NCBI RefSeq assembly: GCF_013283785.1 | Contig: NZ_JABCPZ010000007.1 | Location: 42,689 to 106,688 of the forward strand | Source of the DNA: Nonomuraea antri | Lineage (GTDB): Bacteria; Actinomycetota; Actinomycetes; Streptosporangiales; Streptosporangiaceae | Length of the DNA: 64,000 bases | Reading direction: 5' to 3' | Shown here: positions 5,733 to 42,617 of the stretch, piece by piece | How positions within the stretch are numbered: position 1 is the stretch's first letter | How the letters are laid out: each line of letters begins with the position of its first letter | Program-made: the position numbers and the translations under genes | The notes under the pieces: generated by a model | Databases searched by the model: none | The model's input: the letters and a program-made list of their open reading frames with translations, nothing else | Told to the model about the DNA's origin: nothing

Positions 5733-7241
5733 TCACGTCCTGAGCATGGCGGCCAGGGCCTGCGCGGCGACCTGGCAGCAGAGCGCGGTGCCGCCGAACG
5801 TGGCGACGTGCACCGCGCCGGGGCGTTCGCCGCCGGGCACGCCGAGCTCGACCACGATCGCGTCGGGACGGCCGGCCAGCACCCGGTCCACGGCCGCGGT
5901 GAGGCGGGCGTCCCGGTAGGCGGTGCGCAGCACCAGGACGAGCGGACGCCCGGCGCCCGCGTCGACCGCCTGGCGCAGTTCGGCGTCGCCGGGCGCGTCG
6001 AGTCTGACCGCGGTCGTGCCGGGGACGAGCGCGGACAGCGGCGCGCCCAGGCCCCACGGGGTGGCCGGGTCGATCGCCAGGTTGGTGGGGGCGTCCAGTT
6101 CGATGACGTGCGGCACGCCCGGCGCGGTGAGCGCGGTGTTGATCGTGATGCTGAGCGCGCTGCGTGCGGCCGTGACGGCGGCATGAGCGTCGCCTTCCCC
6201 GGCGGGGGCGCCCGGGTGCCCGGCGGACCAGGCCGACAGGGCGCGGACGCGTCCCGCTGCCTCGGCCAGGCGCTCCTCGGGCAGCACGCCGTCGGCGACG
6301 GCGGCCATGATGCTGTTGCGCAGCAGCCCGACCACGCCCGGCGTGGCGTTCTCCCCGCCCACGCAGATGGCGTCGGCCCCGGCCGCCAGGGCGCGCACGG
6401 CGGTGCCGCCGAGCCCGTAGGTCGCCGACACGGCGGGCATCTCGATGCCGTCGGTCACGATCAGCCCGTCGAAGCCGAGTTCCTCGCGCAGCAGCCCGGT
6501 CATGAGACGGGCGCTGATCGTGGCGGGGGAGCCGGCGTCGTAGGCGGGCACGAGGAGGTGGCCGGTCATGATCGCGCGCACGCCCGCGGCGATGGCCGCG
6601 CGGTAGGGGAGCAGCGCGGTCGCGGCCAGCTCTGCCGCGGACAGCTCGACGGTCGGCAGCGCGTCGTGCGAGTCGACGGCGGTGGCGCCGTGGCCGGGGA
6701 AGTGCTTGGCGCAGCCGGCGACGCCGGCCGACTGCAGGCCGCTCACCCAGGCGGCGGTGTGGCGGGCGACCAGCTCGGGGTCCGAGCCGAACGCCCGGGT
6801 GCCGACGACCGGATTGTGCAGCGCGGAGTCGATGTCGACCACGGGCGCGTAGTTGAGGTTGAGTCCCACTTCGGCCAGGTCGCGGCCGATGCCCCGGGCG
6901 ACGGCCTCGGTCAGCGCGGGCTCGTCGGCCGCGCCGAGCGCCAGGTTGCCGGGGCGCGAGCTGCCGCTGAAGGCCTCCAGACGTGTGACGTCGCCGCCCT
7001 CCTCGTCGAGGGCGATGATGACGTCCGGGTTTTCTGCCCGAATTGCGGCCGTAAGTAGCTGTATCTGTCCCTTTTCCGCCAAATTTCGCGAATAGAGGGC
7101 TATGCCGCCGAGGCCGGTCGCGAGGCGCTTTCTGACCCAATCAGGCAGGGTCGTGCCCTTGAATCCGGGTTGGAGCACGGTGTCGGCAAGCTCGGCCAGG
7201 ACGGGGCTCCCGAGGTTCCGGGCGCTTACCGACGACGTCAT
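5733..7241 (-). CDS. Glycoside hydrolase family 3, NagZ-like beta-N-acetylhexosaminidase
   Basis: 502 residues from ATG 7241 (AAGGAC upstream); the open frame runs much further upstream but only as antisense to the NRPS gene. Key features are ALDEEGGDVTRL (78-89), the NagZ His/Asp dyad in KHFPGHGATAVDSHDALP (179-196, D190 and H192), and the nucleophile Asp264 in LIVTDGIEMPAV. This matches GH3 enzymes that release N-acetylglucosamine from chitin or peptidoglycan fragments. No signal peptide, so intracellular recycling is likely. A C-terminal domain of about 130 residues follows the barrel. It is divergent from the NRPS operon and shares a 126-bp promoter region with a GGAAAnTTTCC dyad. Confidence 0.87.
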   Translation of the reverse strand: MTSSVSARNLGSPVLAELADTVLQPGFKGTTLPDWVRKRLATGLGGIALYSRNLAEKGQIQLLTAAIRAENPDVIIALDEEGGDVTRLEAFSGSSRPGNLALGAADEPALTEAVARGIGRDLAEVGLNLNYAPVVDIDSALHNPVVGTRAFGSDPELVARHTAAWVSGLQSAGVAGCAKHFPGHGATAVDSHDALPTVELSAAELAATALLPYRAAIAAGVRAIMTGHLLVPAYDAGSPATISARLMTGLLREELGFDGLIVTDGIEMPAVSATYGLGGTAVRALAAGADAICVGGENATPGVVGLLRNSIMAAVADGVLPEERLAEAAGRVRALSAWSAGHPGAPAGEGDAHAAVTAARSALSITINTALTAPGVPHVIELDAPTNLAIDPATPWGLGAPLSALVPGTTAVRLDAPGDAELRQAVDAGAGRPLVLVLRTAYRDARLTAAVDRVLAGRPDAIVVELGVPGGERPGAVHVATFGGTALCCQVAAQALAAMLRT

Positions 7242-7297
7242 GCGAAGTCCTTGTCTGTGGTCATCACCTGTGTATAGCATCAAACCCTGCAAATAAA

Positions 7298-7312
7298 TAG
7301 GAAACTTTCCTA
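7298..7312. promoter_or_regulatory. 15-bp dyad TAGGAAACTTTCCTA in the GH3/NRPS divergent promoter
   Basis: Seven-base arms (TAGGAAA/TTTCCTA) flank one central base. It lies about 56 bases from each divergent start (7241 and 7368) in the only AT-rich stretch here. I judge it a repressor operator, most likely controlling the glycosidase, as sugar-responsive ROK or LacI regulators use dyads of this kind. Whether it also controls the NRPS operon cannot be told from sequence. Confidence 0.55.
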
Positions 7313-7367
7313 AGAGTTTTGTGGTGCAACGCCGCGCGCTGATCCGCGGCCCAGGGGGACGGTAAGA

Positions 7368-10300
7368 ATGGACACGGCGCGGGCTCATGACGCGGTCATG
7401 TCGAGAGCACAGGAGCGCCTGTGGTTCCTCGACCGGCTCGCGAGCGGGGGCTCCTCCTACAACATCGCGGTCGCGGAACGGTTCACCGGACCGCTCGACG
7501 CCGCCGCCCTGCAAGGCGCCTTCACCGACCTGGTCGCCAGGCACGAGGCCCTGCGCACGGTGTTCCCCGAGTCCGGCGGCCGGCCCTCGGCCCGCGTGCG
7601 TCCGGCCGGGCCCGTCACCGTCGAGCGGCTCGACGCCACCGAGGACCGGCTGCCCGAACTGCTCGCCGAGCGCTCGAACCGCCCGTTCGACCTGGCAGAG
7701 GGCCCGCTGCTCCGGCTGAGCCTGCTGCGGCTCGGCCCCGCCGACCACGTCCTGCTGCTGGTGCTGCACCACATCATCGGCGACGCCTGGTCGCTGGAGC
7801 GGATCCTGTTCCCCGAGCTGTCCGCCCGTTACGCGGCCCACCTCGCCGGCGACCCGGCGCCGATGCCCGGGCAGGCGCGGCCGTACTCCGACTACGCCCG
7901 CCGCCAGCGCGAGCGCGACCACGACGCCGACCTCGACTTCTGGAGCGCCGACCTGGCCGGCGTGCCCGCGCTCGACCTGCCGCTCGACCGGCCGCGACCG
8001 GCCGCCCCCAGCGGCGCCGGCGGCCTGGTCATCCACCGGATGCCCATCGAGCTGTGGGAAGGGGTGCGCGAGCTGGCCAGGGCCGAGCGGTGCACGCCGT
8101 TCATGGTGATGCTGGCCGCCTACCAGACGCTGATGTCGCGCTACTCCGGCCAGGACGACTTCTGCGTCGGCGTGCCGATCGCCGGCCGCGAGGAGGTCGA
8201 CGACGAACAGGTCTTCGGCCCGTTCGTCAACACCCTCGCGCTGCGCGCCGACCTGGACGGCGACCCGACCGTACGCGACCTGGTCAAGCGGGTGCGCCGC
8301 AGGGTGCTGCGGTCGTTCGGGCACCGGGAGGTGCCCTTCGACGAGGTGGTCGGCGCGCTGCGCAGGCGCGGCGACGACGGGCAGCTCGTGCAGACCATGC
8401 TGAACCTGGACAACCCCGAAGAGGGCCTGGCCAACGGCACCGGGTCGCTCAACCTGACCGGGCTCGACCGCGTGCCCGTGGTCTCCGGCCTGGCTCCGGC
8501 CAAGTTCGACCTGGCCGTGGACGTCATCGTCTACCCGGCCCACCTGCAGTTCATCCTCACCTACAGCAGCGAGCTGTTCGAGCCCGCCACCGTCGAGCGG
8601 ATGGCCGGCCACCTGCGCCGCCTGCTGGAGGAGATGGTGGCGCGGCCCGGCGCCCGGCTGTCCGAGCTGGACATGCTCACCGCCGAGGAGTTCGCGCTCG
8701 TCCTGCCCGACCGGCTGGACGGGCTGATCGCCCAGCAGACCGCGCGCACCCCTGACGCGCCCGCCGTCGTCACCGGCGCGGGCGTGCTCACCTATGCCGA
8801 GCTCGACCGGCGCGCGGCGCTGCTGGCCGCCGAGCTCGATCTGCCTCCCGGCTCGCTGGTGGGGGTTCGCCTGCGAGCCGGGACGGAGGCCATGGTCGCG
8901 CTGCTGGCCGTGCTCAAGGCCGGCGCCGCCTACGTGCCGATCGACCCGTTCCAGCCCGAAGCCAGGACCCAGGTCATGCTGGACGGCTGCGCCGCGGTGA
9001 TCTCCGAGGACGGGATCACCCGCCTGCCCGGACGGGCGATCGAGGCCGGCGCCGCGTACGTGATCTACACCTCGGGCTCGACCGGGGTGCCGAAGGGCGT
9101 CGTGGTCGAGCATCGCACCGCCGCCCGGCTGGCCGCCTCCTTCCGCGACGCGCACGGGTTCGGCCCCGGCCAGCGGGTGCTCATGGTGCCGCCGCTGAGC
9201 TTCGACGCCTCGGTCGGCGACATCTTCCCCGCGCTCATCAGCGGCGCCGCGCTCGTCCTGCACCCGGACCCGGCCTCGCTCAGCGGCCCCGAGGTCCTGC
9301 GGCTCTGCGCCGACCTGGGCATCACCATGATCGACACGGCCAGCGCGCTCTGGCAGCAGTGGGTGGAGGACCTGTCAGGGCTCGGCCAGGCCGACATCGG
9401 GCCGCTGACCACGATGATGGTCGGCGGCGAGAGCGTGCCGATCGAGCGGCTGCGCGCCTGGGCCGAGCTGACCGGCGGCAAGGTGGCCTTCTACAACCAC
9501 TACGGGCCCACCGAGGCCACGGTGTGCGCGACCGTCTACCGCACGATCGACGGCGGCGAACTGCCCGGCCGCACCCACCTGCCGATCGGGCACGCCCTGC
9601 CGCACGTGCGCGCCTACGTCCTGGACCGGCACGGCAACCCGGCGCCGATCGGCGTGCCCGGCGAGCTCCACCTCGGCGGCGAGTGCGTGGCCAGGGGCTA
9701 CCTCGGACGGCCCGAGCAGACCGCCGAACGCTTCCTGTCCGACCCGTTCCTGCCCGGCGCCACCAGGTACGCCACCGGCGACCTGGTACGCCGCCACCCC
9801 GACGGAACACTCGACTTCCTCGGCCGCATCGACAGGCAGCTCAAGATCAACGGCGTGCGGATCGAGCCGGGCGAGGTGGAGAGCGCCTGCCTGGCACACC
9901 CCGGGGTGCGCGAGTGCGTGGTGACCGCCGTCGGCGGCCGCCTGGTCGCCTACCTCGTCGGAACCCCGCCGACCACGCTGAGCACGGCCGAGCTGCGCGG
10001 CTTCCTGGCCGACCGGCTGCCGCCCGCCATGGTGCCGACGGCGGCCGTCATGCTGGAGTCCGTCCCGCTGACCCCGCACGGCAAGGTCGACTTCCGCGCG
10101 CTGCCCGAGCCGGACGTCGCGTCCGTGCCGTACGAGAGCCCCAAGACCGCCACCGAGCAGGCCGTCGCGGACGTGTGGGCCGAGGTGCTGGGCGGCCGGG
10201 CCGGACGCTTCGACAACTTCTTCGACCTCGGCGGCCACTCGCTGCTCACGCCGCGCACGGTCACCAGGCTGGCCGAGGTGACCGGGGTCGAGGTGCCGCT

Positions 10301-11486
10301 GGCCACCTTCTTCGCCTGCGCGGACCTGGCCGAACTGGCCGCCGCCATCGACGGCCGGGCCCCGGCCGCGCCACCCGACCTGTACGGCGACGCCGTCCTG
10401 CCCGCGGACTTCGCCGTCGGCGCGGGACGGGTGCCGGCCCAGCTCCGGCGGGTCCTGCTCACCGGCGCGACCGGCTTCCTCGGCGCCCACCTGCTGGCCG
10501 ACCTCATGACCCGCACCCAGGCCACCGTCCACTGCCTGGTCAGGGGCGCCGACCCGGGCGAGCGGATCAGGCGCAACCTGGCGGCACACGGGCTGTGGCG
10601 GGAGGACTTCGCGGCCAGGATCGTCCCGGTTCCCGGTGACCTGAGCCGTGAGCTGCCCGGCCTGCCGTCCGAGCTGGACCTGATCCTGCACAACGGCGGG
10701 GCCGTCGACTTCACCCGTCCCTACGCCCGGCTGAAGCCCGCCAACGTGGACGGCACGCTGGCGATACTCCGCCTGGCCGCCCGCACGGCGACGCCCGTGC
10801 ACCTGGTCTCGACGCTCGGCGTGTACCTGACGCCGGGGGAACGGGTGGTGCGCGAAGGCGACCTGCTGCCCGACCCCGGGCACCTGCACCTGGGCTACGA
10901 CCAGAGCAAATGGGTGGCCGACCGGCTCGCGGCGGCGGCCAGGGAGACCGGGCTGCCGGTGGCGATCCACCGCCCGGCCAGGATCTCCGGCGACAGCCGC
11001 ACCGGACGCTCGGTCAAGGACGACTTCCTGGCCAGATTCTTCGCCACCTGCGCGCAGCTCGGATCGGTGCCGGCCGGCGAACACCTGGACATGGCGCCCG
11101 TCGACCACGTCGCCGCCGCCATCGGCCACCTGGCCAGGTCCGGCGCCGAGGGCGACTTCCACTACCACAACCCGCGCACGCTGGGCTCGGCCGAGCTCGC
11201 GCGCGGGCTGACCGAGCGCGGCATCCGGGTGCGCCTGGAGCCCGCCGACGCCTGGCGGGCCGAGGTGCGCCGCCGGCTGGCCGCGGGCGAGGAGCTGCCG
11301 CTGGCCGCCTTCCCCGCCTACTTCGCCGAGTACGGCGACGAGCGCGGCCCGAGCTTCGACTGCTCGGCCACCGCGTCCGTGCTGGCCGCGGCCGGGCTCG
11401 TCTGCCCGCCCGCGGACACCCTGCTCGGCGCCTACCTGGACGACCTGATCGACGCCGGTGTGCTGCAAGGAGCCCTTCGTGCCTAG
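7368..11486 (+). CDS. Single-module NRPS with terminal reductase (C-A-T-R)
   Basis: 1,372 residues. Condensation domain (about 10-430) with active HHIIGDAWS (His134, His135, Asp139), of the ordinary LCL look. Adenylation domain (about 445-930): VIYTSGSTGVPKG, NHYGPTEAT, YATGDLVR, GRIDRQLKINGVRIEPGEVE, PHGKVD. Carrier domain with phosphopantetheine Ser958 in FFDLGGHSLL. Terminal thioester-reductase domain (about 1025-1372) with NAD(P)-binding VLLTGATGFLGAHLL from 1029 and Tyr1177/Lys1181 in YDQSK. It condenses an incoming acyl or aminoacyl group with one amino acid and releases the product reductively as aldehyde or alcohol. By hand alignment to GrsA the pocket reads D-A-G-D-M-G-H-V-C-K; no substrate can be assigned. 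No loading partner is encoded nearby. Heads a five-gene operon. Confidence 0.92.
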   Translation: MDTARAHDAVMSRAQERLWFLDRLASGGSSYNIAVAERFTGPLDAAALQGAFTDLVARHEALRTVFPESGGRPSARVRPAGPVTVERLDATEDRLPELLAERSNRPFDLAEGPLLRLSLLRLGPADHVLLLVLHHIIGDAWSLERILFPELSARYAAHLAGDPAPMPGQARPYSDYARRQRERDHDADLDFWSADLAGVPALDLPLDRPRPAAPSGAGGLVIHRMPIELWEGVRELARAERCTPFMVMLAAYQTLMSRYSGQDDFCVGVPIAGREEVDDEQVFGPFVNTLALRADLDGDPTVRDLVKRVRRRVLRSFGHREVPFDEVVGALRRRGDDGQLVQTMLNLDNPEEGLANGTGSLNLTGLDRVPVVSGLAPAKFDLAVDVIVYPAHLQFILTYSSELFEPATVERMAGHLRRLLEEMVARPGARLSELDMLTAEEFALVLPDRLDGLIAQQTARTPDAPAVVTGAGVLTYAELDRRAALLAAELDLPPGSLVGVRLRAGTEAMVALLAVLKAGAAYVPIDPFQPEARTQVMLDGCAAVISEDGITRLPGRAIEAGAAYVIYTSGSTGVPKGVVVEHRTAARLAASFRDAHGFGPGQRVLMVPPLSFDASVGDIFPALISGAALVLHPDPASLSGPEVLRLCADLGITMIDTASALWQQWVEDLSGLGQADIGPLTTMMVGGESVPIERLRAWAELTGGKVAFYNHYGPTEATVCATVYRTIDGGELPGRTHLPIGHALPHVRAYVLDRHGNPAPIGVPGELHLGGECVARGYLGRPEQTAERFLSDPFLPGATRYATGDLVRRHPDGTLDFLGRIDRQLKINGVRIEPGEVESACLAHPGVRECVVTAVGGRLVAYLVGTPPTTLSTAELRGFLADRLPPAMVPTAAVMLESVPLTPHGKVDFRALPEPDVASVPYESPKTATEQAVADVWAEVLGGRAGRFDNFFDLGGHSLLTPRTVTRLAEVTGVEVPLATFFACADLAELAAAIDGRAPAAPPDLYGDAVLPADFAVGAGRVPAQLRRVLLTGATGFLGAHLLADLMTRTQATVHCLVRGADPGERIRRNLAAHGLWREDFAARIVPVPGDLSRELPGLPSELDLILHNGGAVDFTRPYARLKPANVDGTLAILRLAARTATPVHLVSTLGVYLTPGERVVREGDLLPDPGHLHLGYDQSKWVADRLAAAARETGLPVAIHRPARISGDSRTGRSVKDDFLARFFATCAQLGSVPAGEHLDMAPVDHVAAAIGHLARSGAEGDFHYHNPRTLGSAELARGLTERGIRVRLEPADAWRAEVRRRLAAGEELPLAAFPAYFAEYGDERGPSFDCSATASVLAAAGLVCPPADTLLGAYLDDLIDAGVLQGALRA

Positions 11487-12789
11487 AACGTTCACGGTGA
11501 TCTGGTCGTCCCAGCTCCTGTCGATCATCACCTCCAGCGTCACCGGGTTCGTCCTGGGCGTCTGGGTCTTCCAGCGGACCGGCTCGGCCACCCAGTTCGT
11601 GACGATCACGCTCTGCGCGATCCTGCCCGAGGTGCTGTTCGCGCCGCTGGCGGGCTCGCTGGCCGACCGGTGGGACAGGCGCAAGCTGATGATGGGGGCC
11701 GACCTGGGCGCCGCCCTGACCACCGGCGCGCTGGCCCTGCTGCTCGTCACGGGCGAGCCGCAGGTCTGGCACATCTACCTCATCACCGCCGTCGGCGCGG
11801 TCTTCGGCACCGCGCAGATGGCGGCCTACCACTCGATGATGCCGCTGCTCGTGCCGAAGGAGCAGCTCGGCAGGGCCAACGGCATGATGCAGGTGGCCGA
11901 CGCCGTCCGCATCGCCGCGCCGCTGCTGGCGGGCACGCTGCTGGTGGGCGTCGGCATGACCGGCGTGGTCGTCATCGACCTGGTGGCTTTCCTGGTCTCG
12001 CGCGTGGTGCTGCACCTGGTGCCGCTGCCGAGCGCGGTGACCAGGCCGGGCGAGGGCAGGCCGGCCGAGCCGTGGCTGCGCGACCTGGCCTTCGGCATCA
12101 GGTACCTGCGGGCCAGGCAGGGGTTGCTCTGGCTGGTCGGGCTGCTGGCCGCGTACAACCTGTTCTTCGGCATGGCGGGCGTGCTCGTCCAGCCGCTGAT
12201 CCTCTCCTTCGGCTCGGCCGCCGTGCTCGGCGCGCTCATGGCCGCGGGCGGGGCGGGCGTGTTCGTCGGCGGCCTGGTGCTGAGCGCCTGGGGCGGGCCC
12301 AAGCAGCGGGTGCGCGGCCTGCTCGGCTTCATGGCCGCGGGCGGCGCGCTGCTCGCCGCGCACAGCCTCAGCCCGTCGGCCGCGCTGATCGCCGTGGTCG
12401 CGCCCGCCTTCCTGTTCACGCTGCCGTTCGTCCAGGGGACCGGAATCACGATCCTCCAGCTCAAGACCCCACCGGACGAGCTGGGCCGGGTGCTCAGCAC
12501 GGTCCGGATGGTCACCCAGGCCGCGACCGTGCTCACCTACCTGGCCGCGGGCCCGCTCGCCGACCAGGTGTTCGAACCGATGCTGGCGCCCGGCGGCCTG
12601 CTGGCCGGCAGCGTCGGCGAGCTGATCGGCACCGGGCCCGGCCGCGGCATCGCCCTGATCTTCATCATCGCCGGCGCCGGGCTGCTCGTGCTCGCGCCGT
12701 TGGCCTATCTCCAGCCCCGCCTGCGGCGGGTGGAGACGGAACTACCCGACATCGAGGAGCCCTCCGATGCCGCTGTATCTCGATCCTGA
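11479..12789 (+). CDS. MFS exporter (EntS-like)
   Basis: GTG start at 11479, 8 bases inside the NRPS gene and preceded by AAGGAG at ideal spacing, giving 436 residues; an in-frame ATG at 11458 has no such site. About twelve membrane segments. The loop motif LAGSLADRWDRRKLMMGADL between segments 2 and 3 and ELGRVLSTVRMVTQAATV near the end are typical of the EntS/MFS_3 family of siderophore and drug exporters. Its overlap with the NRPS and with the methyltransferase gene (23 bases) places it in the biosynthetic operon, so it most likely exports the product and gives self-protection. Confidence 0.85.
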   Translation: MPRTFTVIWSSQLLSIITSSVTGFVLGVWVFQRTGSATQFVTITLCAILPEVLFAPLAGSLADRWDRRKLMMGADLGAALTTGALALLLVTGEPQVWHIYLITAVGAVFGTAQMAAYHSMMPLLVPKEQLGRANGMMQVADAVRIAAPLLAGTLLVGVGMTGVVVIDLVAFLVSRVVLHLVPLPSAVTRPGEGRPAEPWLRDLAFGIRYLRARQGLLWLVGLLAAYNLFFGMAGVLVQPLILSFGSAAVLGALMAAGGAGVFVGGLVLSAWGGPKQRVRGLLGFMAAGGALLAAHSLSPSAALIAVVAPAFLFTLPFVQGTGITILQLKTPPDELGRVLSTVRMVTQAATVLTYLAAGPLADQVFEPMLAPGGLLAGSVGELIGTGPGRGIALIFIIAGAGLLVLAPLAYLQPRLRRVETELPDIEEPSDAAVSRS

Positions 12790-13816
12790 CGCACTACACA
12801 CCTTCCGCGATCTCAACCAAGGCCCGGGCGCCATGCTCGACCTGATCGGCGCCATGGCCTTCCGCGCCGCGGGGACGGCCCAGCGGCTCGGCCTGTTCGA
12901 GGTCGTCGCCGCCGGACCCATGAGCGCCGCGGCGCTGGCCGGGAAACTCGGCGTCCCCGAGCAGCCACTGACCGTCCTGCTCGACGCGCTCACCGGCTTC
13001 GGCTACCTGGAGCGGACCGGCGAACAGTACGCCGCCGGACCCGCGGCCAGCCCGTGGCTCGACAGGAACGCCGGCGGCGGGTTCGCGCCCGCGCTGGCCG
13101 TCTGGCACGACCTGATCGGCGAGCTGTGGACCGGCCTGGAGCACGCGGTACGCACCGGCCGGCCGCGCGAGCCCTACTACCCGTGGCTGGAACGGCGGCC
13201 CGGCACCCTGCGCGACTTCCAGACCATGCTCGCAGGACTGGCCTGGATGCTCGCCCCCGCCGTGGTCAAGGCGGCGCCGCCGGTGCGCGGCAGCCTGCTG
13301 GACATCGGGGGCGGTCACGCGATCTACAGCCTCGCCTTCTGCCGGGCCGCCGCCGACCTGACCGCCACCGTCGTGGACCTGCCAGGCGCGCTGGAGCAGG
13401 GCCGCGCGCACGTGGCGGACGCCGGTCTGGCCGACCGGGTCCGGCTGGTGCCCGGTGACCTGGCCGACCCCATCGAGGGTCGGCACGACGCGGTGCTGCT
13501 GTTCAACGTCGTCCACGGTCTCGACCCCTCGGCCAACGCCGACCTGTTCGAGCGGGTCTTCGCCGCGCTGCGCCCCGGCGGCGTGGTGCTCGTCCTGGAG
13601 CCCTTCGCCGACCCGCCGGCCGGGACCGGCGGGCACGACGCGGCCTTCCTCGGCGGTTTCAGCCTCAACCTGGCCGCCACTCAGGGCGGGCGGCTCTACG
13701 CCTTCGACGAGGTCGCCGGATGGGCGTCCGCGGCGGGACTGACCGGACTCGAACGGCTCGCGCTCGACGCGCCCAGCACCGACGAACTGCTCGTGGCCAG
13801 GCGGGAGGCGCAGTGA
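12767..13816 (+). CDS. SAM-dependent methyltransferase (plant-OMT/Methyltransf_2 type)
   Basis: 349 residues. An N-terminal winged-helix dimerisation domain (about 15-95: AQRLGLFEVVAAG, ALAGKLGVPE, GYLERTGEQYAAG) precedes a Rossmann domain with the SAM motif LLDIGGGHAIYSLAF (177-191), an acidic VVDLPGALEQ and LLFNVVHGL. This layout covers small-molecule O-methyltransferases and also the C-methyltransferases that act on 3-hydroxykynurenine or 3-hydroxyanthranilate in sibiromycin and actinomycin pathways. With a KMO-like gene overlapping its stop, methylation of a hydroxylated aryl amino acid is a reasonable guess. GAGGAG lies upstream of ATG 12767. Confidence 0.85.
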   Translation: MPLYLDPDALHTFRDLNQGPGAMLDLIGAMAFRAAGTAQRLGLFEVVAAGPMSAAALAGKLGVPEQPLTVLLDALTGFGYLERTGEQYAAGPAASPWLDRNAGGGFAPALAVWHDLIGELWTGLEHAVRTGRPREPYYPWLERRPGTLRDFQTMLAGLAWMLAPAVVKAAPPVRGSLLDIGGGHAIYSLAFCRAAADLTATVVDLPGALEQGRAHVADAGLADRVRLVPGDLADPIEGRHDAVLLFNVVHGLDPSANADLFERVFAALRPGGVVLVLEPFADPPAGTGGHDAAFLGGFSLNLAATQGGRLYAFDEVAGWASAAGLTGLERLALDAPSTDELLVARREAQ

Positions 13817-15042
13817 AGATCGCAATCGTGGGCGCCGGGCCCGCGGGCAGCCTGCTCGCCTGCTACCTGGCCAAGGGCGGCCACCGCGTGGACGTCTACG
13901 AGCGGCGCTCCGACCCCCGCGGCCACGACGACGCCGAGGGCCGCTCGATCAACCTCGGCCTGTCGGCCCGCGGCGTGCGCGCGCTGACGGACGTCGGCCT
14001 CATGTCCGAGATCTGGCCGCTGACCGTGCCGATGCGCGGCAGGGCCGTGCACACGCCCGACGGGCACGTGTCGTTCCACCCGTACGGCACCAGGCAGGAG
14101 GAGATCCTGCACTCGATCCGCCGCCGCGACCTGGTCGTCAGCCTGATCAGGCACGCGAGCGCGGCCGGTGTCACCTTCCACTTCGACACCCCGCTCACCG
14201 ACCTGCCGGAAGGGGACGCGGTCGTCGGCGCCGACGGCGCGTTCTCCACGGTCAGGACGCTGATGCAGCGCACCGTCAGGGCCGACTTCCGCCAGGAGTT
14301 CCTGCCCTGGGGGTACAAGGAGCTGACCATCCCGCGCGTGCCCTCGCACCACGAGGCGCTGCACGTGTGGCCGGGCGGCGACGACGGCCTCATCGTCACC
14401 CACCCCAACCTGGACGGCTCCGCCACCGCGACGCTGTTCCTGCCCTACGAGCGGTTCGCCGAGATCACCGACCCCGAGGCGTTCTTCGCCCGCCGCTTCC
14501 CCGACGCCCTCGATCTCATCCCCGACCTGGCCAAGGAGTACGCCGAGCGGCCCGTGGGGCACCTCGTCTCGGTCCGCACCGCGCCCTGGCACCACGAGGG
14601 GCGGATCGTGCTCATCGGCGACGCCGCCCACGCCGTCTACCCCTTCTACGGCCAGGGCATGAACTCCGCGCTGGAGGACTGCACCGTGCTCGACGCCTGC
14701 GTGGCCGAGCACGGCGACGACCTGGCCGCCGCCTTCGCCGAGTTCGAGCGCCGCCGCCGTCCGCACACCGACGTGCTGGACGAGCTGTCCAGGCAGAACT
14801 TCGTCGAGCTGCGCGAGCGGGTGCGCTCGCCGCTGCACGCCGCGCGCAAGCGCGCCGACCTCATGCTGGCCCGGGCCTTCCCCGGCCGCTGGGTCCCCCT
14901 CTACACGATGGTCTCCCACACCACCACGCCCTACGCCGACGCGCTCGCCCGAGCCGAGCGGCAGGACGCCGTCCTTCGCTGGGCCGCCCTGGGCGGCGCC
15001 GGGCTCGCCGCGATCGCCATGCTCGCCAGGAAGGTCCGCTAA
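13813..15042 (+). CDS. Kynurenine 3-monooxygenase-like FAD hydroxylase
   Basis: 409 residues from the GTG overlapping the methyltransferase stop (GTGA), with GGGAGG upstream. FAD site IVGAGPAG (5-12), second FAD motif IGDAAHAVYPFYGQGMNSAL (about 265-285), then a tail with QNFVELRERV and YTMVSHTTTPYADAL. The segment EGRSINLGLSARGVRAL and the PFYGQGMN/LEDC run are characteristic of kynurenine 3-monooxygenase rather than generic aromatic hydroxylases. KMO hydroxylates L-kynurenine to 3-hydroxykynurenine using NADPH and oxygen. The last 20 residues (WAALGGAGLAAIAMLARKVR) form a hydrophobic tail that may anchor it to the membrane. No tryptophan dioxygenase or kynureninase gene is in the window, so the true substrate is open. 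Confidence 0.85.
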   Translation: MKIAIVGAGPAGSLLACYLAKGGHRVDVYERRSDPRGHDDAEGRSINLGLSARGVRALTDVGLMSEIWPLTVPMRGRAVHTPDGHVSFHPYGTRQEEILHSIRRRDLVVSLIRHASAAGVTFHFDTPLTDLPEGDAVVGADGAFSTVRTLMQRTVRADFRQEFLPWGYKELTIPRVPSHHEALHVWPGGDDGLIVTHPNLDGSATATLFLPYERFAEITDPEAFFARRFPDALDLIPDLAKEYAERPVGHLVSVRTAPWHHEGRIVLIGDAAHAVYPFYGQGMNSALEDCTVLDACVAEHGDDLAAAFAEFERRRRPHTDVLDELSRQNFVELRERVRSPLHAARKRADLMLARAFPGRWVPLYTMVSHTTTPYADALARAERQDAVLRWAALGGAGLAAIAMLARKVR

Positions 15043-15047
15043 GAACC

Positions 15048-15701
15048 ATGCTCACGGATCACACCGACCCCTCACGTGTGCTGATCGAACTGTCCGACCT
15101 CGACGGCGACGACGAGATCGTCAAGTTGTACGGCGAACCGCTGCGTCACATCGTGACCTGGGCGCGTACGTACCTGACCCGCCCGCATCCCGAACTCGGC
15201 AGGAAGGGACCCGTGTGTCCCTACGCCCAGACCTCGCTCGACAAGGGCACCTTCTACCTGGCCGTCTGCCGCGGTGAGCCGACGGTGGCCGACCTGACCG
15301 GCCTGCTGGCCGGATACCGCGCGTGGTTCCAGCGGCTGGTCAGCCCCGAGGGGGTGTCGCCGCAGTTCCGCACGATCCTGGTCCTGGTGCCCGACCTGCC
15401 CGACGACGAGGCCGCGGCGGTGATCGACGCGGCCCAGCTCGAGTTGAAGACCGACTACGTCCGGGCCGGCCTGATGATCGGCGAGTTCTACCCGGGGCCG
15501 CCGCCCAAGGCCGGGCTGTGGAACACCGACTTCAGGCCGCTGGGCAGCCCGGTGCCGCTGCTGGCGATCAGGCACATGGTGGCCAGCGACTTCCCGTTCC
15601 TGAAGGACGACCCGGAGCAGACCGCCGCCTATCTGGAGCGCTTCGGCGACCGCCCGCCGGCCGTGCTCAGGGAGGCGATAGCCGCCGTCCGGCCGGGCTG
15701 A
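15048..15701 (+). CDS. DUF6875-like protein of the NRPS operon
   Basis: 217 residues, starting 5 bases after the KMO-like stop. I recognise it only as resembling the DUF6875 group. Visible marks are GPVCPYAQTSLDKGTFYLAV (54-73, one conserved Cys57), LMIGEFYPGPPPKAGLW, and PLGSPVPLLAIRHMVASDFPFL near the C-terminus. No signal peptide, membrane segment, nucleotide-binding or metal motif. Position at the end of the operon, before a strong terminator, says it belongs to the biosynthetic unit, as tailoring enzyme or accessory factor. No function is known to me. Confidence 0.7.
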   Translation: MLTDHTDPSRVLIELSDLDGDDEIVKLYGEPLRHIVTWARTYLTRPHPELGRKGPVCPYAQTSLDKGTFYLAVCRGEPTVADLTGLLAGYRAWFQRLVSPEGVSPQFRTILVLVPDLPDDEAAAVIDAAQLELKTDYVRAGLMIGEFYPGPPPKAGLWNTDFRPLGSPVPLLAIRHMVASDFPFLKDDPEQTAAYLERFGDRPPAVLREAIAAVRPG

Positions 15702-15729
15702 CCGGCCGCACCGCCGGGGCCGTCACATC

Positions 15730-15764
15730 GCGCCGCCGCCGTCCGACGAGGACGGCGGCGGCGC
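15730..15764 (+). terminator. Terminator of the NRPS operon
   Basis: Perfect 15-bp GC stem (15730-15744 with 15750-15764), 5-base loop GACGA, followed by TTTC. Lies 28 bases after the DUF6875 stop and separates the biosynthetic operon from the sugar transporter. Confidence 0.88.
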
Positions 15765-15806
15765 TTTCGCATTCCCGGCCGGCCGCCGACAGTGCGTTTC
15801 TGGATT

Positions 15807-15883
15807 GTTACCGGAAACAACAAACTCCGGACCTGGAGGGTCTTCCAAAGCAGGCCGCAGCGGAATACGTTGCCGCAAACAAC
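15807..15883. promoter_or_regulatory. Two operator-like direct repeats upstream of the sugar ABC operon
   Basis: GTTACCGGAAACAAC (15807-15821) and GTTGCCGCAAACAAC (15869-15883) match at 13 of 15 positions and are 62 bases apart, start to start. The first also pairs with GTTTCTGG at 15796-15803. The operon encodes its own ROK-family regulator, the likely ligand-responsive repressor for these sites. The downstream copy ends 38 bases before the start codon, so blocking of transcription is plausible. Confidence 0.6.
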
Positions 15884-15921
15884 ATTCATCCGGGCCCCTC
15901 CGGAAGAAAGGACCCTGCACC

Positions 15922-17043
15922 ATGCGCAAGGGGATCCTCAGCATGACCGCCGCGGCAGCCGCGCTCGCCCTCGGTCTCACCGCCTGCGGGGGCGAAAGCG
16001 GTCAGACCACGTCGACGTCCTCCGCCTCAGCATCCGCCTCCCAGCCGGCGCAGAAGGCCGGGAAGATCGGCGTCATCCTGCCCGACAGCAAGTCCTCGGC
16101 CAGGTGGGAGACGGCGGACCGCAAGTTCCTCCAGGAGGCGTTCACGGCCGCCGGCGTGGAGTACGACATCCAGAACGCCCAGAACGACAAGAACGCCTTC
16201 CAGACCATCGCCGACCAGATGATCACCAACGGGGCCACCGTCCTGATGATCGTCAACCTGGACAGCGGCAGCGGCAAGGCCGTCATCGACAAGGCCAAGT
16301 CCCAGGGCGTGGCCGTCATCGACTACGACCGGCTCACCCTCGGCGGCGGCGCCGCCTACTACGTGAGCTTCGACAACACCAAGGTCGGCACCCTGCAGGG
16401 CGAGGGCCTGAGCAAGTGCCTGACCGACAAGAAGGCGGACAAGCCCATCGTCGCCTACCTGAACGGCTCGCCCACCGACAACAACGCGACCCTGTTCAAG
16501 GCCGGCTACGACGGCGTGCTCAAGCCCAAGTTCGACGCCGGCGAGTACGTCAAGGGCCCCGACCAGGACGTGCCCGAGTGGGACAACACCCAGGCCGGGA
16601 CGATCTTCGAGCAGATGCTCACCAGCGAGCCGAAGATCGCCGGCGTGCTGGCCGCCAACGACGGGCTCGGCAACGCCGCCATCACCGTGCTGAAGAAGAA
16701 CAAGCTCAACGGCAAGGTGCCCGTCACCGGCCAGGACGCCACCGTCCAGGGCCTGCAGAACATCCTGGCCGGCGACCAGTGCATGACGGTCTACAAGGCG
16801 GTCAAGAAGGAGGCCGAGGCCGGGGCCAAGCTCGCCGTGGCGCTGGCCAAGGGCGAGAAGCCGGCCGCGAGCGGGACCGTCAAGGACACCACCACCAACC
16901 AGGACGTCCCCGCCGAACTCCTCGAACCGCAGGCGATCTTCTTCGACAACGTCAAGGACGTCGTCGCGGACGGCTACGTCACCAAGGAGGAACTGTGCAC
17001 GGGTGACTTCGCCGAGAAGTGCACCGAGGCCGGAATCCAGTGA
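15922..17043 (+). CDS. xylF: Sugar ABC transporter substrate-binding lipoprotein (XylF-like)
   Basis: 373 residues. Lipoprotein signal peptide with lipobox LTAC (Cys about 22) followed by a Ser/Thr/Ala linker. The mature part is a type-1 periplasmic binding protein: KIGVILPDSKSSARWETADRKF, then AVIDYDRLTLGGGAAYYVSFDNTKVG as in XylF-type D-xylose binding proteins, VAYLNGSPTDNNA, and AGVLAANDGLGNAAI. It captures a pentose or similar sugar outside the cell for the next two genes. Ribosome site GAAAGGA precedes ATG 15922. Xylose is suggested by family only; the symbol marks family. Confidence 0.85.
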   Translation: MRKGILSMTAAAAALALGLTACGGESGQTTSTSSASASASQPAQKAGKIGVILPDSKSSARWETADRKFLQEAFTAAGVEYDIQNAQNDKNAFQTIADQMITNGATVLMIVNLDSGSGKAVIDKAKSQGVAVIDYDRLTLGGGAAYYVSFDNTKVGTLQGEGLSKCLTDKKADKPIVAYLNGSPTDNNATLFKAGYDGVLKPKFDAGEYVKGPDQDVPEWDNTQAGTIFEQMLTSEPKIAGVLAANDGLGNAAITVLKKNKLNGKVPVTGQDATVQGLQNILAGDQCMTVYKAVKKEAEAGAKLAVALAKGEKPAASGTVKDTTTNQDVPAELLEPQAIFFDNVKDVVADGYVTKEELCTGDFAEKCTEAGIQ

Positions 17044-20428: not shown

Positions 20429-21187
20429 TCAGGTGACCTTGGCGGGGGCGGCGTTCCAGGTGTCGCAGGCGTCCGGGGTCGCGCCGCGAAAGCCCTGGTT
20501 CTGCCAGTAGGCCAGGTTGCGCGGCCGGCCGTGGACCTCGCTCTCCTCCGCCATGCGCACCGCGCCGAGCCAGTCCCGCCAGGTGATCCCGGGCCGGATC
20601 GAACGCAGCGCGCTCGCGTAGAAGGCCCCGGCGAAGCACTCGGCCTGCATCTCCAGCCGGTGGCTGAGCGTGGTGCGCGCCGCGCCGGTGGCCCGCTGGT
20701 ACAGGGCGTTCTGCGCGTCGAGCACGCCGGTGAGCGCCTGCACGTGGTGCCCCCACTCGTGCGCGACGGCGTGCGCGGCGTTCATCCTGAACGGGTCGCG
20801 CAGGTCGCCCCGGGTGATCCTGATCACGATCGTGTGCTGCGCCGGGCAGTACTGGGCGCCGGTGACGATCTTCCCGCAGACCGAGTCTCGGCCGGTGGTG
20901 ACGTCCACCGCGGGCGGCCGGTAGGCCAGCCGGGCCGCGGCGAACCTGGCCGACCAGAACTGGTCGGCGCAGGCGGCCATCCCACGGTAGAACGCGCGGA
21001 ACGAGGCCGCGCTGCCCGTCCTGATCGGGGGCACCCGGCAGGTCAGCGGGGCGGGCCGGGCGGCCAGCAGCGGCCGCCAGCCCTCCAGCCCGCCGGGCCT
21101 GGCCGCGGCGGCCGCGGCCGGGGACACCCCGGACGACAGCAGATCCGCGACCATGCACATCGCAGCGGCGATGAGGGGAAGGCGCAC
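20429..21187 (-). CDS. Secreted neutral zinc metallopeptidase-like protein (paralogue 2)
   Basis: 252 residues from a GTG at 21187. Short hydrophobic N-terminus (about 1-28) suited to secretion. Catalytic motif HEWGHH at 143-148; third-ligand helix LEMQAEC; closing motif ACDTWNAAPAKVT shared with paralogue 1. Cysteines in the CRVPP, VCGKI and QYCPAQ segments recur in the paralogues and probably form disulfides outside the cell. Third gene of a minus-strand run of three peptidase genes with 42 and 64 base gaps. Substrate unknown. Confidence 0.78.
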   Translation of the reverse strand: MRLPLIAAAMCMVADLLSSGVSPAAAAAARPGGLEGWRPLLAARPAPLTCRVPPIRTGSAASFRAFYRGMAACADQFWSARFAAARLAYRPPAVDVTTGRDSVCGKIVTGAQYCPAQHTIVIRITRGDLRDPFRMNAAHAVAHEWGHHVQALTGVLDAQNALYQRATGAARTTLSHRLEMQAECFAGAFYASALRSIRPGITWRDWLGAVRMAEESEVHGRPRNLAYWQNQGFRGATPDACDTWNAAPAKVT

Positions 21188-21229
21188 GGTCGCGGATCTC
21201 AGATCACGTAGCTGGCGGACGGACAGGGG

Positions 21230-22006
21230 CTAGCGGACCTTGCCCTTCGGCGCGGCCCAGGTGTTGCACGCGCTCGGCGACTCGGCGTCGAAGCCGCGCT
21301 GGAGCCACCACGCGATGTTGGCGGGCTTGCCGTGGATGCCGTCGTCGAAGCCGACCTGGGCGGTCTGCACGATGTACTTGAAGTCGAAGTCACGGCGGCC
21401 CAGCGAGTGCCAGACACTGCCGATGAACGCCCCCGACATGCACTCGGCCTGCAGCTCGACGCGGCGGGCCTCGTCGTAGATGCGGGCCTTGCTCTTGCCC
21501 TTGTACCTGTCGACGATGTTGAGCACGCCGGTCAGGTCCTGGATGTGGTGGCCGTACTCGTGCGCGATCACCGCCATCAGGAACAGCTCGGTCGGCTCCG
21601 ACAGGATGTACGGGTCGAGCAGGAAGGTGATCTTCTTGTTGTTCGGGCAGTACACCGCCTGGGCGCCCCGGGGGAACTTGCCGCATCCGGTGGCCGCGCC
21701 GGGCTTGCTGATGACGCTGAACTTCGGCTCCTTGAACGTGAAGCCGGCCTTGGTGATCGGCTCGCGCCAGGAGTCGGCCAGGCAGTCGAGCAGGAACTCG
21801 AGGTACACCCGTGCGCCGTCCAGGTCGTCGCGCTGGAGCGGCTGCTCCTCGCACGTCTCGGTGCCCAGCTCACCCGTCTTGTAGATCGGGTTCTTCGTCA
21901 GGACCGGGCTGAACGGATCCGCCGCGACCGGTGCCGCGTGGGCGGTGCCGGCGAACAGCACACTCGCCAGGGCGCCCGCGATGAGCGCCAATAGGGGGCT
22001 ACGCAT
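21230..22006 (-). CDS. Secreted neutral zinc metallopeptidase-like protein (paralogue 3)
   Basis: 258 residues from ATG 22006, which gives a clean signal peptide (ALIAGALASVLFAGTAHA, cleavage near residue 24). An ATG at 22081 would add 25 residues and overlap paralogue 4, and is less likely. HEYGHH at 149-154, ELQAEC ligand helix, closing motif ACNTWAAPKGKVR. The mature N-terminus DPFSPVLTKNPIYKTGEL resembles paralogues 1 and 4 (DPFARTGKL, NPLYKTSRL), a short pro-segment shared by the group. Confidence 0.8.
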   Translation of the reverse strand: MRSPLLALIAGALASVLFAGTAHAAPVAADPFSPVLTKNPIYKTGELGTETCEEQPLQRDDLDGARVYLEFLLDCLADSWREPITKAGFTFKEPKFSVISKPGAATGCGKFPRGAQAVYCPNNKKITFLLDPYILSEPTELFLMAVIAHEYGHHIQDLTGVLNIVDRYKGKSKARIYDEARRVELQAECMSGAFIGSVWHSLGRRDFDFKYIVQTAQVGFDDGIHGKPANIAWWLQRGFDAESPSACNTWAAPKGKVR

Positions 22007-22070
22007 GGGTACGGAGCCTATTAGAGGAGGAGCAACTGGTAAAGCTGGGGTAAAAGAGGTCGATCCACGG

Positions 22071-22970
22071 TCAATCCACATACCGGGCCGGTGAGGACCA
22101 GGTGTTGCACGCGCCCGGCGTGCCGCGCGAGAAGCCCCGGCTCATCCAGGCCGCCTGCGTCTCGCCCTTGCCGTGGTCGTTCTGCGGCCAGCCCTTGGCG
22201 CCGTTCTTGCGGAACCAGTCCACCGTGTAGTCCCAGTCGGCGGGGGAGACCAGCGGGGTGTTCCTGATCGAGCTCATGAACACCGCGGAGAAGCACTCGG
22301 CCTGCAGCTCCGAGCGCCGCGACAACTGCAGTTTGGCGGTCTTGCCCGCGCTCGCCCTGGCCGTCCAGTAGTAGTTCCAGATGCCGGAGACCTGCTGGAC
22401 GTGGTGGCCGTACTCGTGGGCGACCAGCCGGGTGATGCCGAGCGGGAACGGGTTGCGCAGCTGCTCCCTGCTGATCATCAGGTACATCGTGCGGTCGCTG
22501 GAGCAGTAGACGCCGTCCGCGCCGGTGTTCCACGAGCCGCACGCGGTCTTCACCCGGCTGGTGATGATGCGCAGCTTCGGCTTGGTGAACGGCAGCCCCG
22601 CCCGGCGGAACTGGGTGGCCCAGGCCCGGTTCAGGCAGGACGTCACGCGGGTCAGGAACCGCTTGTAGGCGATCATGCTGTTCGCCGGCAGGTCGCCCGG
22701 CGAGCAGTTCGGGCTGCTCAGCCGGCTCGTCTTGTACAGCGGATTGGCGGTGGCGACCGCCCTGCCCGGCGCGCCGGTCTTCTTCCCCGACGTCGCGCCG
22801 CCGGCCTCGCCCGGCGGCGACTCCGCCTGCCGCGCCTCGCCGACGGCACCGCCCCGCGTGGTCGTCGTCGCCACGCCCGCGAGTGCGAGCACCACACCAG
22901 CGATGGCCAGGGCCAGCATCAGCCCGACGACCAGCAGGGTGGCGACCTTACTTTTGGGGACGGTGTTCAT
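22071..22970 (-). CDS. Membrane-anchored neutral zinc metallopeptidase-like protein (paralogue 4)
   Basis: 299 residues. A single hydrophobic helix at about 9-32 has no obvious cleavage site and is followed by a Gly/Glu-rich linker (40-70), so this copy is probably an N-terminally anchored ectoenzyme. HEYGHH at 185-190, ELQAEC helix, and ACNTWSSPARYVD at the end. First gene of the three-gene run; its promoter must lie in the 123-bp gap shared with the divergent dxs gene. Confidence 0.8.
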   Translation of the reverse strand: MNTVPKSKVATLLVVGLMLALAIAGVVLALAGVATTTTRGGAVGEARQAESPPGEAGGATSGKKTGAPGRAVATANPLYKTSRLSSPNCSPGDLPANSMIAYKRFLTRVTSCLNRAWATQFRRAGLPFTKPKLRIITSRVKTACGSWNTGADGVYCSSDRTMYLMISREQLRNPFPLGITRLVAHEYGHHVQQVSGIWNYYWTARASAGKTAKLQLSRRSELQAECFSAVFMSSIRNTPLVSPADWDYTVDWFRKNGAKGWPQNDHGKGETQAAWMSRGFSRGTPGACNTWSSPARYVD

Positions 22971-41149: not shown

Positions 41150-41180
41150 GACGCACGTCCACCTGCGAGAAGGAGCTGTG

Positions 41181-42617
41181 ATGTACGACGTCGCGATCGC
41201 CGGCGGCGGCCCCGTGGGCCTGCTGCTGGCCGCCGAGCTGGCCCTGCAGGGAGTCAGGCCGGTGGTGCTCGAACGGCTGGCGATGCCGTCGGGCGAGTCC
41301 AAGGCGGGCACGCTGCACGCGCGCACCGCGCAGAGCCTCGACCGGCGCGGCCTGCTCGGCGCGGTCGGCCGGTCGAGCACGGGCAGCGTGAGCTTCCACT
41401 TCTCCGGCATGTTCGGGCTCGACCTGGGCGCGGTGGCGCAGGAGGGCGTCAGCATCGTGGGCAGCCCGCAGTCCTGGGCCGAGCAGGTCTTCGCCCGCCG
41501 CGCCGCCGCGCTCGGCGCGGAGATCAGGCGCGGGCAGGAGGTCACCGGGCTGGTCCAGCACGACGACCACGTGGTGCTCACGGTCAACGGGCGCGAACTG
41601 GCCGCGCGCTACGTCGTCGGCGCGGACGGCGCGCGCAGCACGGTGCGCACGGCGGCGGGCATCCCGTTCACCGGCACGCCCGCCGGGGTCGCCGCGCTCA
41701 TGGGCGACGTACGCCTGCTCGACCCGTACGGCGTGCCGCCCGGCTACACCCGCACCCCGCGAGGCTGGATCATCGTCTGGCTGAACCCGGCCGGGCACAG
41801 CCGCGTCACCACCTACGACTTCCGCGCCCCGCACGCCGACCGGCAGGCCCCGGTCACCCTGGACGAGCTGCGCGCGGCGGCCGAACACATCCTGGACCGG
41901 CCGGTCCCGATGGCCGACCCGGGCGCCCTGTCCAGGTACGGCGACGCCGCGCTGCAGGCCGAGACGTACCGCGCGGGCCGGGTGCTGCTGGCCGGCGACG
42001 CCGCGCACGTGCACTTCCCGTGGGGCGGCCAGGGCCTGAACACCGGGCTCGAGGACGCGTTCAACCTGGGCTGGAAACTGGCCGCCGAGGTGCGGGGGCA
42101 CGCGCCGGCCGGCCTGCTCGACAGCTACCACGCCGAGCGGCACCCGGTGGGCGCCCGGGTGTTGTGGAACGTGCGCGCGCAGACCGCGCTGGCGAACCCC
42201 GACCCCGCGGTCGACCCGCTGCGCGAGCTGTTCGCCGAGCTGATGCGCTTCGACGAGGTCAACGAGCACCTGAGCGGCATGATCAGCGGCGTGCGCACCG
42301 CCTACGACGTGGGCGTGCCGGGAGCCGGGCGGATGGCCGTGGACCTGGAGCTGAAGACCGGCGACGGCCCGGTCACGCTGGTGGAGCTGCTGCGGGCGGG
42401 CCGGCCGCTGTTGCTCGACCTGGCCGGCCGCGACGACCTGGTGGCCGAGGCGGCGGGCTGGGCCGGCCGGGTGGACGTGGTGCGCGCGAGCGCCGCGCAT
42501 CCCGCCGACGCGCTGCTGATCAGGCCGGACGGGTACGTGGCGTGGACCTCCGAGGCCACCGGCCATCCGCTGCGGGCCGCACTCGAACGCTGGTTCGGCG
42601 AATGTGACGCAGCGTGA
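41181..42617 (+). CDS. FAD-dependent aromatic monooxygenase (PheA/TfdB group, Rox-like size)
   Basis: 478 residues from ATG 41181 (AAGGAG 5 bases upstream; a GTG at 41178 is also possible). FAD-binding VAIAGGGPVGLLLAAEL (4-20), the DG motif GADGARSTVR, and GRVLLAGDAAHVHFPWGGQGLNTGLEDAFNLGWKLA, followed by a thioredoxin-like C-terminal domain. Group-A flavin hydroxylases of this length include antibiotic-inactivating enzymes (Rox on rifamycins, Tet(X)) and polyketide tailoring enzymes. With an exporter and ArsR upstream and no polyketide genes, detoxification is favoured; the substrate is unproven. Confidence 0.85.
   Translation: MYDVAIAGGGPVGLLLAAELALQGVRPVVLERLAMPSGESKAGTLHARTAQSLDRRGLLGAVGRSSTGSVSFHFSGMFGLDLGAVAQEGVSIVGSPQSWAEQVFARRAAALGAEIRRGQEVTGLVQHDDHVVLTVNGRELAARYVVGADGARSTVRTAAGIPFTGTPAGVAALMGDVRLLDPYGVPPGYTRTPRGWIIVWLNPAGHSRVTTYDFRAPHADRQAPVTLDELRAAAEHILDRPVPMADPGALSRYGDAALQAETYRAGRVLLAGDAAHVHFPWGGQGLNTGLEDAFNLGWKLAAEVRGHAPAGLLDSYHAERHPVGARVLWNVRAQTALANPDPAVDPLRELFAELMRFDEVNEHLSGMISGVRTAYDVGVPGAGRMAVDLELKTGDGPVTLVELLRAGRPLLLDLAGRDDLVAEAAGWAGRVDVVRASAAHPADALLIRPDGYVAWTSEATGHPLRAALERWFGECDAA

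Follow-up and report, generated by a model that had tools for sequence, protein, structure and literature searches.

Pyrrolobenzodiazepine (PBD) pathways free their products reductively, by means of a nonribosomal peptide synthetase (NRPS) module with condensation, adenylation, thiolation and reductase domains (C-A-T-R). A protein of this kind heads a five-gene operon on the forward strand of Nonomuraea antri, at positions 7368-15701 of the stretch analysed here (the window: 64,000 nucleotides, G000:C558:42689-106688, GC content about 72%, from a genome of 11.67 Mb in 580 contigs). It is followed by genes for an exporter of the major facilitator superfamily (MFS), a PF00891 methyltransferase, a flavoenzyme resembling kynurenine 3-monooxygenase (KMO) and a DUF6875 protein (Table 1). 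An earlier note on this DNA had described the same operon, and both the coordinates and the family matches, each well above cut-off (Pfam/NCBIfam), bear this out. PBD clusters such as those for sibiromycin, anthramycin and porothramycin likewise contain an NRPS together with KMO-family and SibL-like methyltransferase genes, as far as the accessible part of the porothramycin report goes (PMC4194701), and PBD membership, the frame of the earlier note, was tried first. It was dropped: neither kynureninase nor tryptophan dioxygenase (TDO) lies in the region tested, the conserved partner of the KMO-like enzyme is the DUF6875 protein instead, and an anthranilate-activating A-T module was found neither in the scanned open reading frames (ORFs) of the window nor in 12.7 kb upstream, the rest of the genome not having been searched for one. 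The note had already remarked that these three functions are missing, which holds for the operon; a search of the genome for the two enzymes, as it suggested, placed a kynureninase on contig C577 and TDO genes on C560 and C210. Since the porothramycin cluster, in the accessible text, is itself without a TDO gene (PMC4194701), the absence of TDO alone is not decisive.

A second comparison is offered by tetrahydroisoquinoline assembly (saframycin, naphthyridinomycin, dnacin), which in the accessible account (PMC7570522) also uses a C-A-T-R terminal enzyme and in which further features may have counterparts here: a non-protein aromatic amino acid, an acyl leader and a hydroxyethyl unit placed on a carrier by two-component transketolases. 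By analogy the parallel is striking, although tetrahydroisoquinoline assembly draws its monomers from tyrosine or phenylalanine (dnacin uses p-aminophenylalanine; PMC7570522), whereas the monomer of the window is likely indolic, and although the corresponding starter genes are joined to the operon only in relatives of N. antri. A match of the whole operon to a characterised cluster did not emerge among the papers listed in the open literature searched, although a published product may exist among subscription journals or bioRxiv preprints. From comparison of sequences, we propose with moderate confidence that the operon builds an oxidised tryptophan, which it would couple to an acyl group probably brought in trans on a C-T didomain encoded elsewhere, and that reduction is predicted to set free an aldehyde or alcohol. 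The DUF6875 protein, predicted to be a heme-thiolate enzyme, would hydroxylate L-tryptophan, most likely at C-7; the KMO-family enzyme would hydroxylate the resulting phenol again, most likely at the adjoining position C-6; and the methyltransferase would methylate the product, most likely on oxygen. The A domain, with pocket code DAGDMGHVCK, would load the methylated product on T, and the C domain would couple it to an acyl or hydroxyacyl unit brought on the C-T didomain that belongs to a starter set (an acyl-ligase-like A protein, C-T, E1-alpha, E1-beta and E2), whereupon the R domain would free the chain and the MFS protein would export it.

To place the operon, GTDB genomes were scanned with a DUF6875 alignment, and the best 80 of 296 relatives, at 79 loci and biased to close relatives, were compared. 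A KMO-like gene lies within 4 kb of DUF6875 at 62 of the 79 loci and a reductase domain is present at 60, with both at 58; KMO-like, reductase, methyltransferase and MFS genes are all nearby at 48 (41 + 7), while 14 loci have neither KMO nor reductase. The terminal A domains of all 60 reductase-linked loci, recovered by frame extraction, carry the code DAGDxGHVCK (60/60), which reads exactly DAGDMGHVCK in 58 of them and in the window; L069 and L106 are one position off. Given the linkage to KMO and reductase and the single near-invariant code, we regard the set as a conserved cassette in which one monomer is made, activated last and released by reduction, and this monomer is likely an oxidised tryptophan. 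The comparison thus supports what the earlier note had proposed, namely a compact pathway that includes a methyltransferase and an aryl hydroxylase and ends in reductive release. Cassettes occur in Streptosporangiaceae, Thermomonosporaceae, Pseudonocardiaceae, Micromonosporaceae and Streptomycetaceae; the compact order NRPS-MFS-methyltransferase-KMO-DUF6875 is found in the window and at L040-L045, and in rearranged form at L046. Going by their organisms, we can link none of the 79 loci to a known compound. Outside these families, DUF6875 also stands near NRPS modules at L100 and L128 (a Gemmatimonadetes metagenome-assembled genome, hence another phylum); L100, an incomplete locus, shows only an A code, the near-identical DAGDWGHVC. 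At L115, L121, L132, L133 and L135, from Corallococcus and Streptomyces tateyamensis, DUF6875 accompanies an MFS-like gene and NRPS modules with Asn-like codes (DLTKVAHVA, DLTKVGHVG), and no KMO.

The remaining readable A domains of the cassette clusters carry different codes, often of the Gly type. When 54 genomes of the genus were searched with the A domain (up to 30 scored candidates per genome), 20 matches reached at least 387 bits and the next one 336 bits. All 20 lie in DUF6875-positive genomes, that is, in 12 of the 15 genomes that encode DUF6875 (two of them as short fragments), and none in the 39 others. Together with the near-invariant code, this pattern argues for one specific monomer, which, to judge from linkage, would be the product of the DUF6875 and KMO-like enzymes. 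Two of the genomes, G051 and G014, which both have the cassette elsewhere, contain a second C-A-T-R gene (L189 on G051:C44 and L190 on G014:C6) whose A domain is 66-68% identical, with no KMO or DUF6875 gene in the 18 kb covered; the code of L189 is that of the cassette. These genes may take their monomer from the cassette present elsewhere in each genome. Loci lacking a KMO-like gene were also considered as proof that the product of DUF6875 is what the A domain recognises; this was dropped, as the species of L082 and L125 carry other KMO-like copies.

In the accessible part of a recent report, DUF6875 or 'cytochrome P422' proteins are described as heme L-tryptophan oxidases, C-7 hydroxylases included, and for one of them, ZigI of the zigralone cluster, the authors expect indole C-7 hydroxylation before methoxylation (PMC13307353). 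The window protein matches PF21780 with 221.2 bits against a gathering score of 24.5, and its structural model finds its best match in the heme-thiolate arginine hydroxylase AglA (PDB 9ub5), at 12% identity; other Foldseek matches were regarded as noise. Judging by this model, the protein combines a thiolate-type cysteine, the invariant Cys57, with an AglA-like fold, and we predict it to be a heme-thiolate tryptophan oxygenase. AglA, a YqcI/YcgG heme enzyme (PMC12866846), differs in that it hydroxylates a guanidine nitrogen and not an indole. ZigI and the window protein both belong to PF21780 and both occur with a methyltransferase; however, the zigralone pathway is meroterpenoid and its gene list, as accessible, names no NRPS (PMC13307353), whereas DUF6875 here pairs with a KMO-like flavoenzyme in the operon of a C-A-T-R module.

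The closest named homologs of the KMO-like protein are Nonomuraea proteins, and its ten best relatives in the PDB are kynurenine 3-monooxygenases (among them 6lkd, 6fox and 5fn0; best E 9e-77). Residues of the Pseudomonas fluorescens enzyme (PfKMO) that contact the kynurenine carboxylate are kept in the cassette, namely R84, Y98 and N369 in 63 of 63 rows and Y404 in 62 (roles of contact and pocket residues as given in the accessible part of PMC6376250). Arg84 aligns with R77 of the window enzyme, and R75 is kept in 62 of 63 rows. The hydrophobic ring pocket, in contrast, has changed: Leu226 is replaced by His in 63 of 63 rows (H197 in the window) and Met373 by Leu in 63 of 63, whereas the five PDB KMOs in the alignment retain Leu226, as does the genome's second KMO on C260; the window enzyme also differs from these KMOs in being encoded within an NRPS operon. 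The kept carboxylate contacts and the ring-pocket His together suggest a hydroxylase of free amino acids with a polar ring pocket, which would suit a phenol, 7-hydroxytryptophan for instance. The flavin hydroxylases to which KMO belongs act on activated rings; hydroxylation at C-6 is our guess from geometry. With this pocket altered and two defining PBD features absent from the region tested, the operon was filed as neither PBD nor KMO. The second KMO gene adjoins an alpha/beta hydrolase gene, and the kynureninase on C577 lies near an amidohydrolase and a DmpG-type aldolase, so that primary kynurenine catabolism looks separate from the operon, contrary to the possibility, left open by the earlier note, that the KMO-like enzyme serves only there.

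In the PDB search, DnrK-type proteins (E 1e-24) and SibL (E 3e-23) match the methyltransferase about equally well, SibL having been proposed as an aromatic-ring methyltransferase in sibiromycin biosynthesis, according to the accessible text (PMC4194701). The alignment has His in 51 of 57 rows (5 gaps) at one position of the methyltransferase. This position is that of the usual O-methyltransferase base, and the His therefore favours O-methylation, if weakly.

The same enzymes could also follow a kynurenine route, which we consider possible but rather doubtful. The KMO-like protein would then be a true kynurenine 3-hydroxylase, the methyltransferase would C- or O-methylate 3-hydroxykynurenine, the A domain would load it, and in a product freed as the aldehyde the arylamine could ring-close to a seven-membered benzazepine imine, with DUF6875 replacing TDO or acting later. 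The carboxylate contacts, which 62-63 of 63 rows preserve, the rank of SibL as second-best PDB match and the TDO genes of the genome agree with this route. It is opposed by the uniform change of Leu226 to His where the other genomic KMO keeps Leu, by the lack of a formamidase gene in the operon, and by the Trp C-7 hydroxylation reported for DUF6875 homologs in the accessible text (PMC13307353), which would duplicate the addition made by a KMO.

Returning to the tryptophan pathway proposed above, a module that condenses its monomer with an acyl unit in trans would be first and last at once, and the C domain points in this direction. Its motif replaces the HHxxxDG of standard C domains, and the form HHxxxDA is shared by 12 of 12 compact-type C domains as against 1 of 19 other terminal C domains. 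In a tree of 73 rows from 35 chosen loci, the 12 compact-type domains (support 100/100) fall within a group of 25 (97/100), whose forks are partly weak; the other 13 rows comprise seven from starter-set loci (C210, L185, L187, L188), four from L104 and L099, where a C-T match closely precedes the first of two C domains, and two from Herbidospora. Of the other terminal C domains, belonging to larger clusters, 18 of 19 form a separate group (98/96), and that of L075 groups with internal ones. This grouping with starter-linked domains supports, without proving, that the single module took a first-step C domain and kept a terminal A-T-R.

The earlier note had allowed for an acyl donor made elsewhere, and candidate genes for one do exist. 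In N. typhae, downstream of DUF6875, lie genes that encode an acyl-ligase-like A protein of 468 aa, a C-T didomain of 467 aa, E1-alpha, E1-beta, E2 and a divergent C-like protein. The same set recurs in the same order at L137, L139, L181, L182, L183 and L184, the six relatives with a compact operon; in five of these C-T lies on the operon contig, 5.4-10.5 kb downstream, and in G041 and the window genome on another contig. In N. antri the set occupies C210:2-7.9 kb, within the 20 kb analysed there, next to a TDO gene and a separate NRPS gene (C-A-T-TE-MFS). These genes, of the thiamine pyrophosphate/E2 type, are thus on the operon contig in five relatives and on C210 here, and any likeness to the tetrahydroisoquinoline transketolases is one of gene type. 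The pocket code of the starter A protein begins with Asn in place of Asp, which would be expected if the protein is an acyl ligase and does not activate amino acids. In a C-T search of the 54 genus genomes, the seven compact-operon genomes gave the top seven of 33 matches at E <=1e-80; some match occurs in 26 of the 54, so C-T genes of the starter type are not confined to the operon. In Streptosporangium carneum, a C-T gene (36% identical) overlaps the start of the C-A-T-R gene by 4 nt. The C210 set is the likely missing partner and may serve the window operon; a location elsewhere in the genome may partly reflect the assembly, given 580 contigs and a contamination of 5.6% (tool figure).

The C210 genes also form part of a sister cluster (L180, G000:C210:540-13659) with TDO, E2, E1, C-T, acyl-ligase-like A and C-A-T-TE-MFS, the last with the A code DFTKIGHVG. 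Herbidospora nrps-6 (C/T plus C/Aasn/T-TE) is similar to this cluster, in which the TDO may point to kynurenine or another Trp-derived residue. A further Herbidospora orphan cluster, nrps-2, is described in the accessible text as x-Gly-Lys-x, ending in a C/A/T module of 1341-1351 aa with two ORF numbers skipped before it (PMC4599437). At the Herbidospora loci L119 and L124, the codes agree with Gly and a Lys-type residue, and nrps-2 is probably one of the large cassette relatives. It is larger than the window operon, and its accessible listing gives TE where we see R, names no KMO/DUF6875 pair and uses different scaffold numbers (PMC4599437).

That no donor is used at all seems unlikely. In that case the C domain would idle and A-T-R would yield free amino aldehydes, which dimerise to pyrazine-type products or condense with a second monomer; no donor gene adjoins the operon in the ORFs scanned or the 12.7 kb upstream, and the HHxxxDA motif would fit. 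But the C domain is of full length, its His-His and Asp recur in 12 of 12 rows of the compact type, and relatives retain C-T near the operon, even overlapping the C-A-T-R gene in S. carneum. Somewhat less probable still is a relic that has lost its partner genes and makes nothing: the place taken by the starter set close downstream in relatives is occupied by different genes here, yet all five frames are open, with third-position GC of 92-98%, and pocket residues, T and R motifs are intact. The trimmed PBD pathway of the earlier note we consider very improbable, since its likeness lies in the KMO-family, SibL-like and C-A-T-R components discussed at the outset, while the anthranilate module and kynureninase are absent from the region tested, relatives have as donor partner an A protein of the acyl-ligase-like kind (first code residue Asn, not Asp) with E1/E2, and the conserved oxygenase partner, DUF6875, is not listed in the accessible porothramycin gene table (PMC4194701).

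Several points weigh against the proposed oxidised-tryptophan pathway itself. The reductase-linked loci L082 (N. soli) and L125 (N. endophytica) keep the code without a KMO-like gene, although other KMO-like copies in these species mean that the order of steps is not settled by them. Two of the 20 genus A-domain matches (G051:C44, G014:C6) do not adjoin DUF6875, and three DUF6875-positive genomes (G019, G020, G050) show no such A domain in that search. To our knowledge, no amino acid has been assigned to the code DAGDMGHVCK. The kept kynurenine-carboxylate contacts and the closeness to SibL would suit a kynurenine substrate, and the C-domain motif is non-standard. The starter set is not beside the operon in the window genome, C210 having its own NRPS and TDO, and the C-T on C210 (62%) comes no nearer than the C-T proteins of G001, G029 and G034 (62-63%), genomes without the compact operon. 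Part of the distance correlation, moreover, stems from common descent. The role of DUF6875, finally, comes from one paper that cites a preprint and, in its accessible part, describes L-Trp oxidations in general (PMC13307353).

The layout of the operon is tight. With GTG starts chosen at 11479 and 13813, successive genes overlap by 8, 23 and 4 nt and are then separated by a 5-nt gap, in line with the junctions given in the earlier note, and none of the five frames has an internal stop. The single terminator claimed there is matched in part: a GC hairpin of 15 bp (z -5.3; 0 of 200 shuffles equally stable) follows the last gene but has no T-run, and a consensus scan of 7100-16000 lists no terminator on the + strand; a consensus promoter scan found no promoter. 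Upstream lies a divergent GH3 glycosidase gene (5733-7241), an arrangement shared with N. typhae, and between it and the NRPS start an inverted repeat, TAGGAAACTTTCCTA, at 7298-7312 is possibly a regulator site. Downstream follow genes for a sugar ABC transporter and, with them, one for a ROK-family regulator. No further NRPS domains occur in the Pfam-scanned window ORFs (the called ORFs and a few more, not every frame), and tblastn found none in the 12.7 kb upstream on the operon contig. Elsewhere in the window, three adjacent genes at 20429-22970 and a fourth at 382-1323 belong to the Zn_peptidase family (PF04228), and an aromatic-ring hydroxylase gene (FAD_binding_3 + Rng_hyd_C) at 41178-42617 adjoins an MFS transporter gene, away from the operon.

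Table 1. Genes, NRPS domains and possible transcript end of the operon (window positions).
Feature	Position	Strand	Basis and remarks
NRPS C-A-T-R, 1372 aa	7368..11486	+	Condensation, AMP-binding, PP-binding, NAD_binding_4/Thioester-redct
C domain (aa 8-441)	7389..8690	+	Pfam; motif HHIIGDA
A domain, pocket code DAGDMGHVCK	8724..10085	+	Pfam; code extraction
T domain (LGGHSL)	10158..10349	+	Pfam; motif
R domain	10452..11459	+	TIGR01746 Thioester-redct, 244 bits vs cut-off 213; TGATGFLG nucleotide site, YxxxK motif
MFS exporter	11479..12789	+	Pfam; GTG start chosen, 8-nt overlap with NRPS
PF00891 methyltransferase, DnrK/SibL-like	12767..13816	+	Pfam; PDB relatives
KMO-family flavin monooxygenase (FAD_binding_3)	13813..15042	+	GTG start chosen; PDB relatives, alignment
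DUF6875 protein (PF21780), predicted heme-thiolate tryptophan oxygenase	15048..15701	+	Pfam E 1.4e-65; invariant Cys57; literature as accessible
GC hairpin, strong, no T-run; possible transcript end	15730..15764	+	Fold vs shuffles

One can further imagine, as a long shot, an indole counterpart of the saframycin-type line, in which a methylated 6,7-dihydroxytryptophan made by DUF6875 and a KMO-derived enzyme, an acyl or glycolyl starter loaded through TPP/E2 components, a single first-and-last C-A-T-R module and cyclisation with a second electron-rich indole would lead to DNA-reactive aldehydes of the beta-carboline type in many actinobacterial genera. More generally, the comparison suggests a rule: wherever DUF6875 and this KMO-like gene are neighbours, a single near-invariant pocket marks the last NRPS module, which in most cases also contains a reductase. 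The rule raises the question of what role a KMO-type flavoenzyme plays beside a tryptophan hydroxylase, and it predicts an aldehyde-type end group, often the active part of such molecules, as well as a single building block common to clusters of Salinispora, Saccharothrix, Streptosporangium, Herbidospora, Streptomyces and Nonomuraea. Assigning the code DAGDMGHVCK would thus cover dozens of orphan clusters at once.

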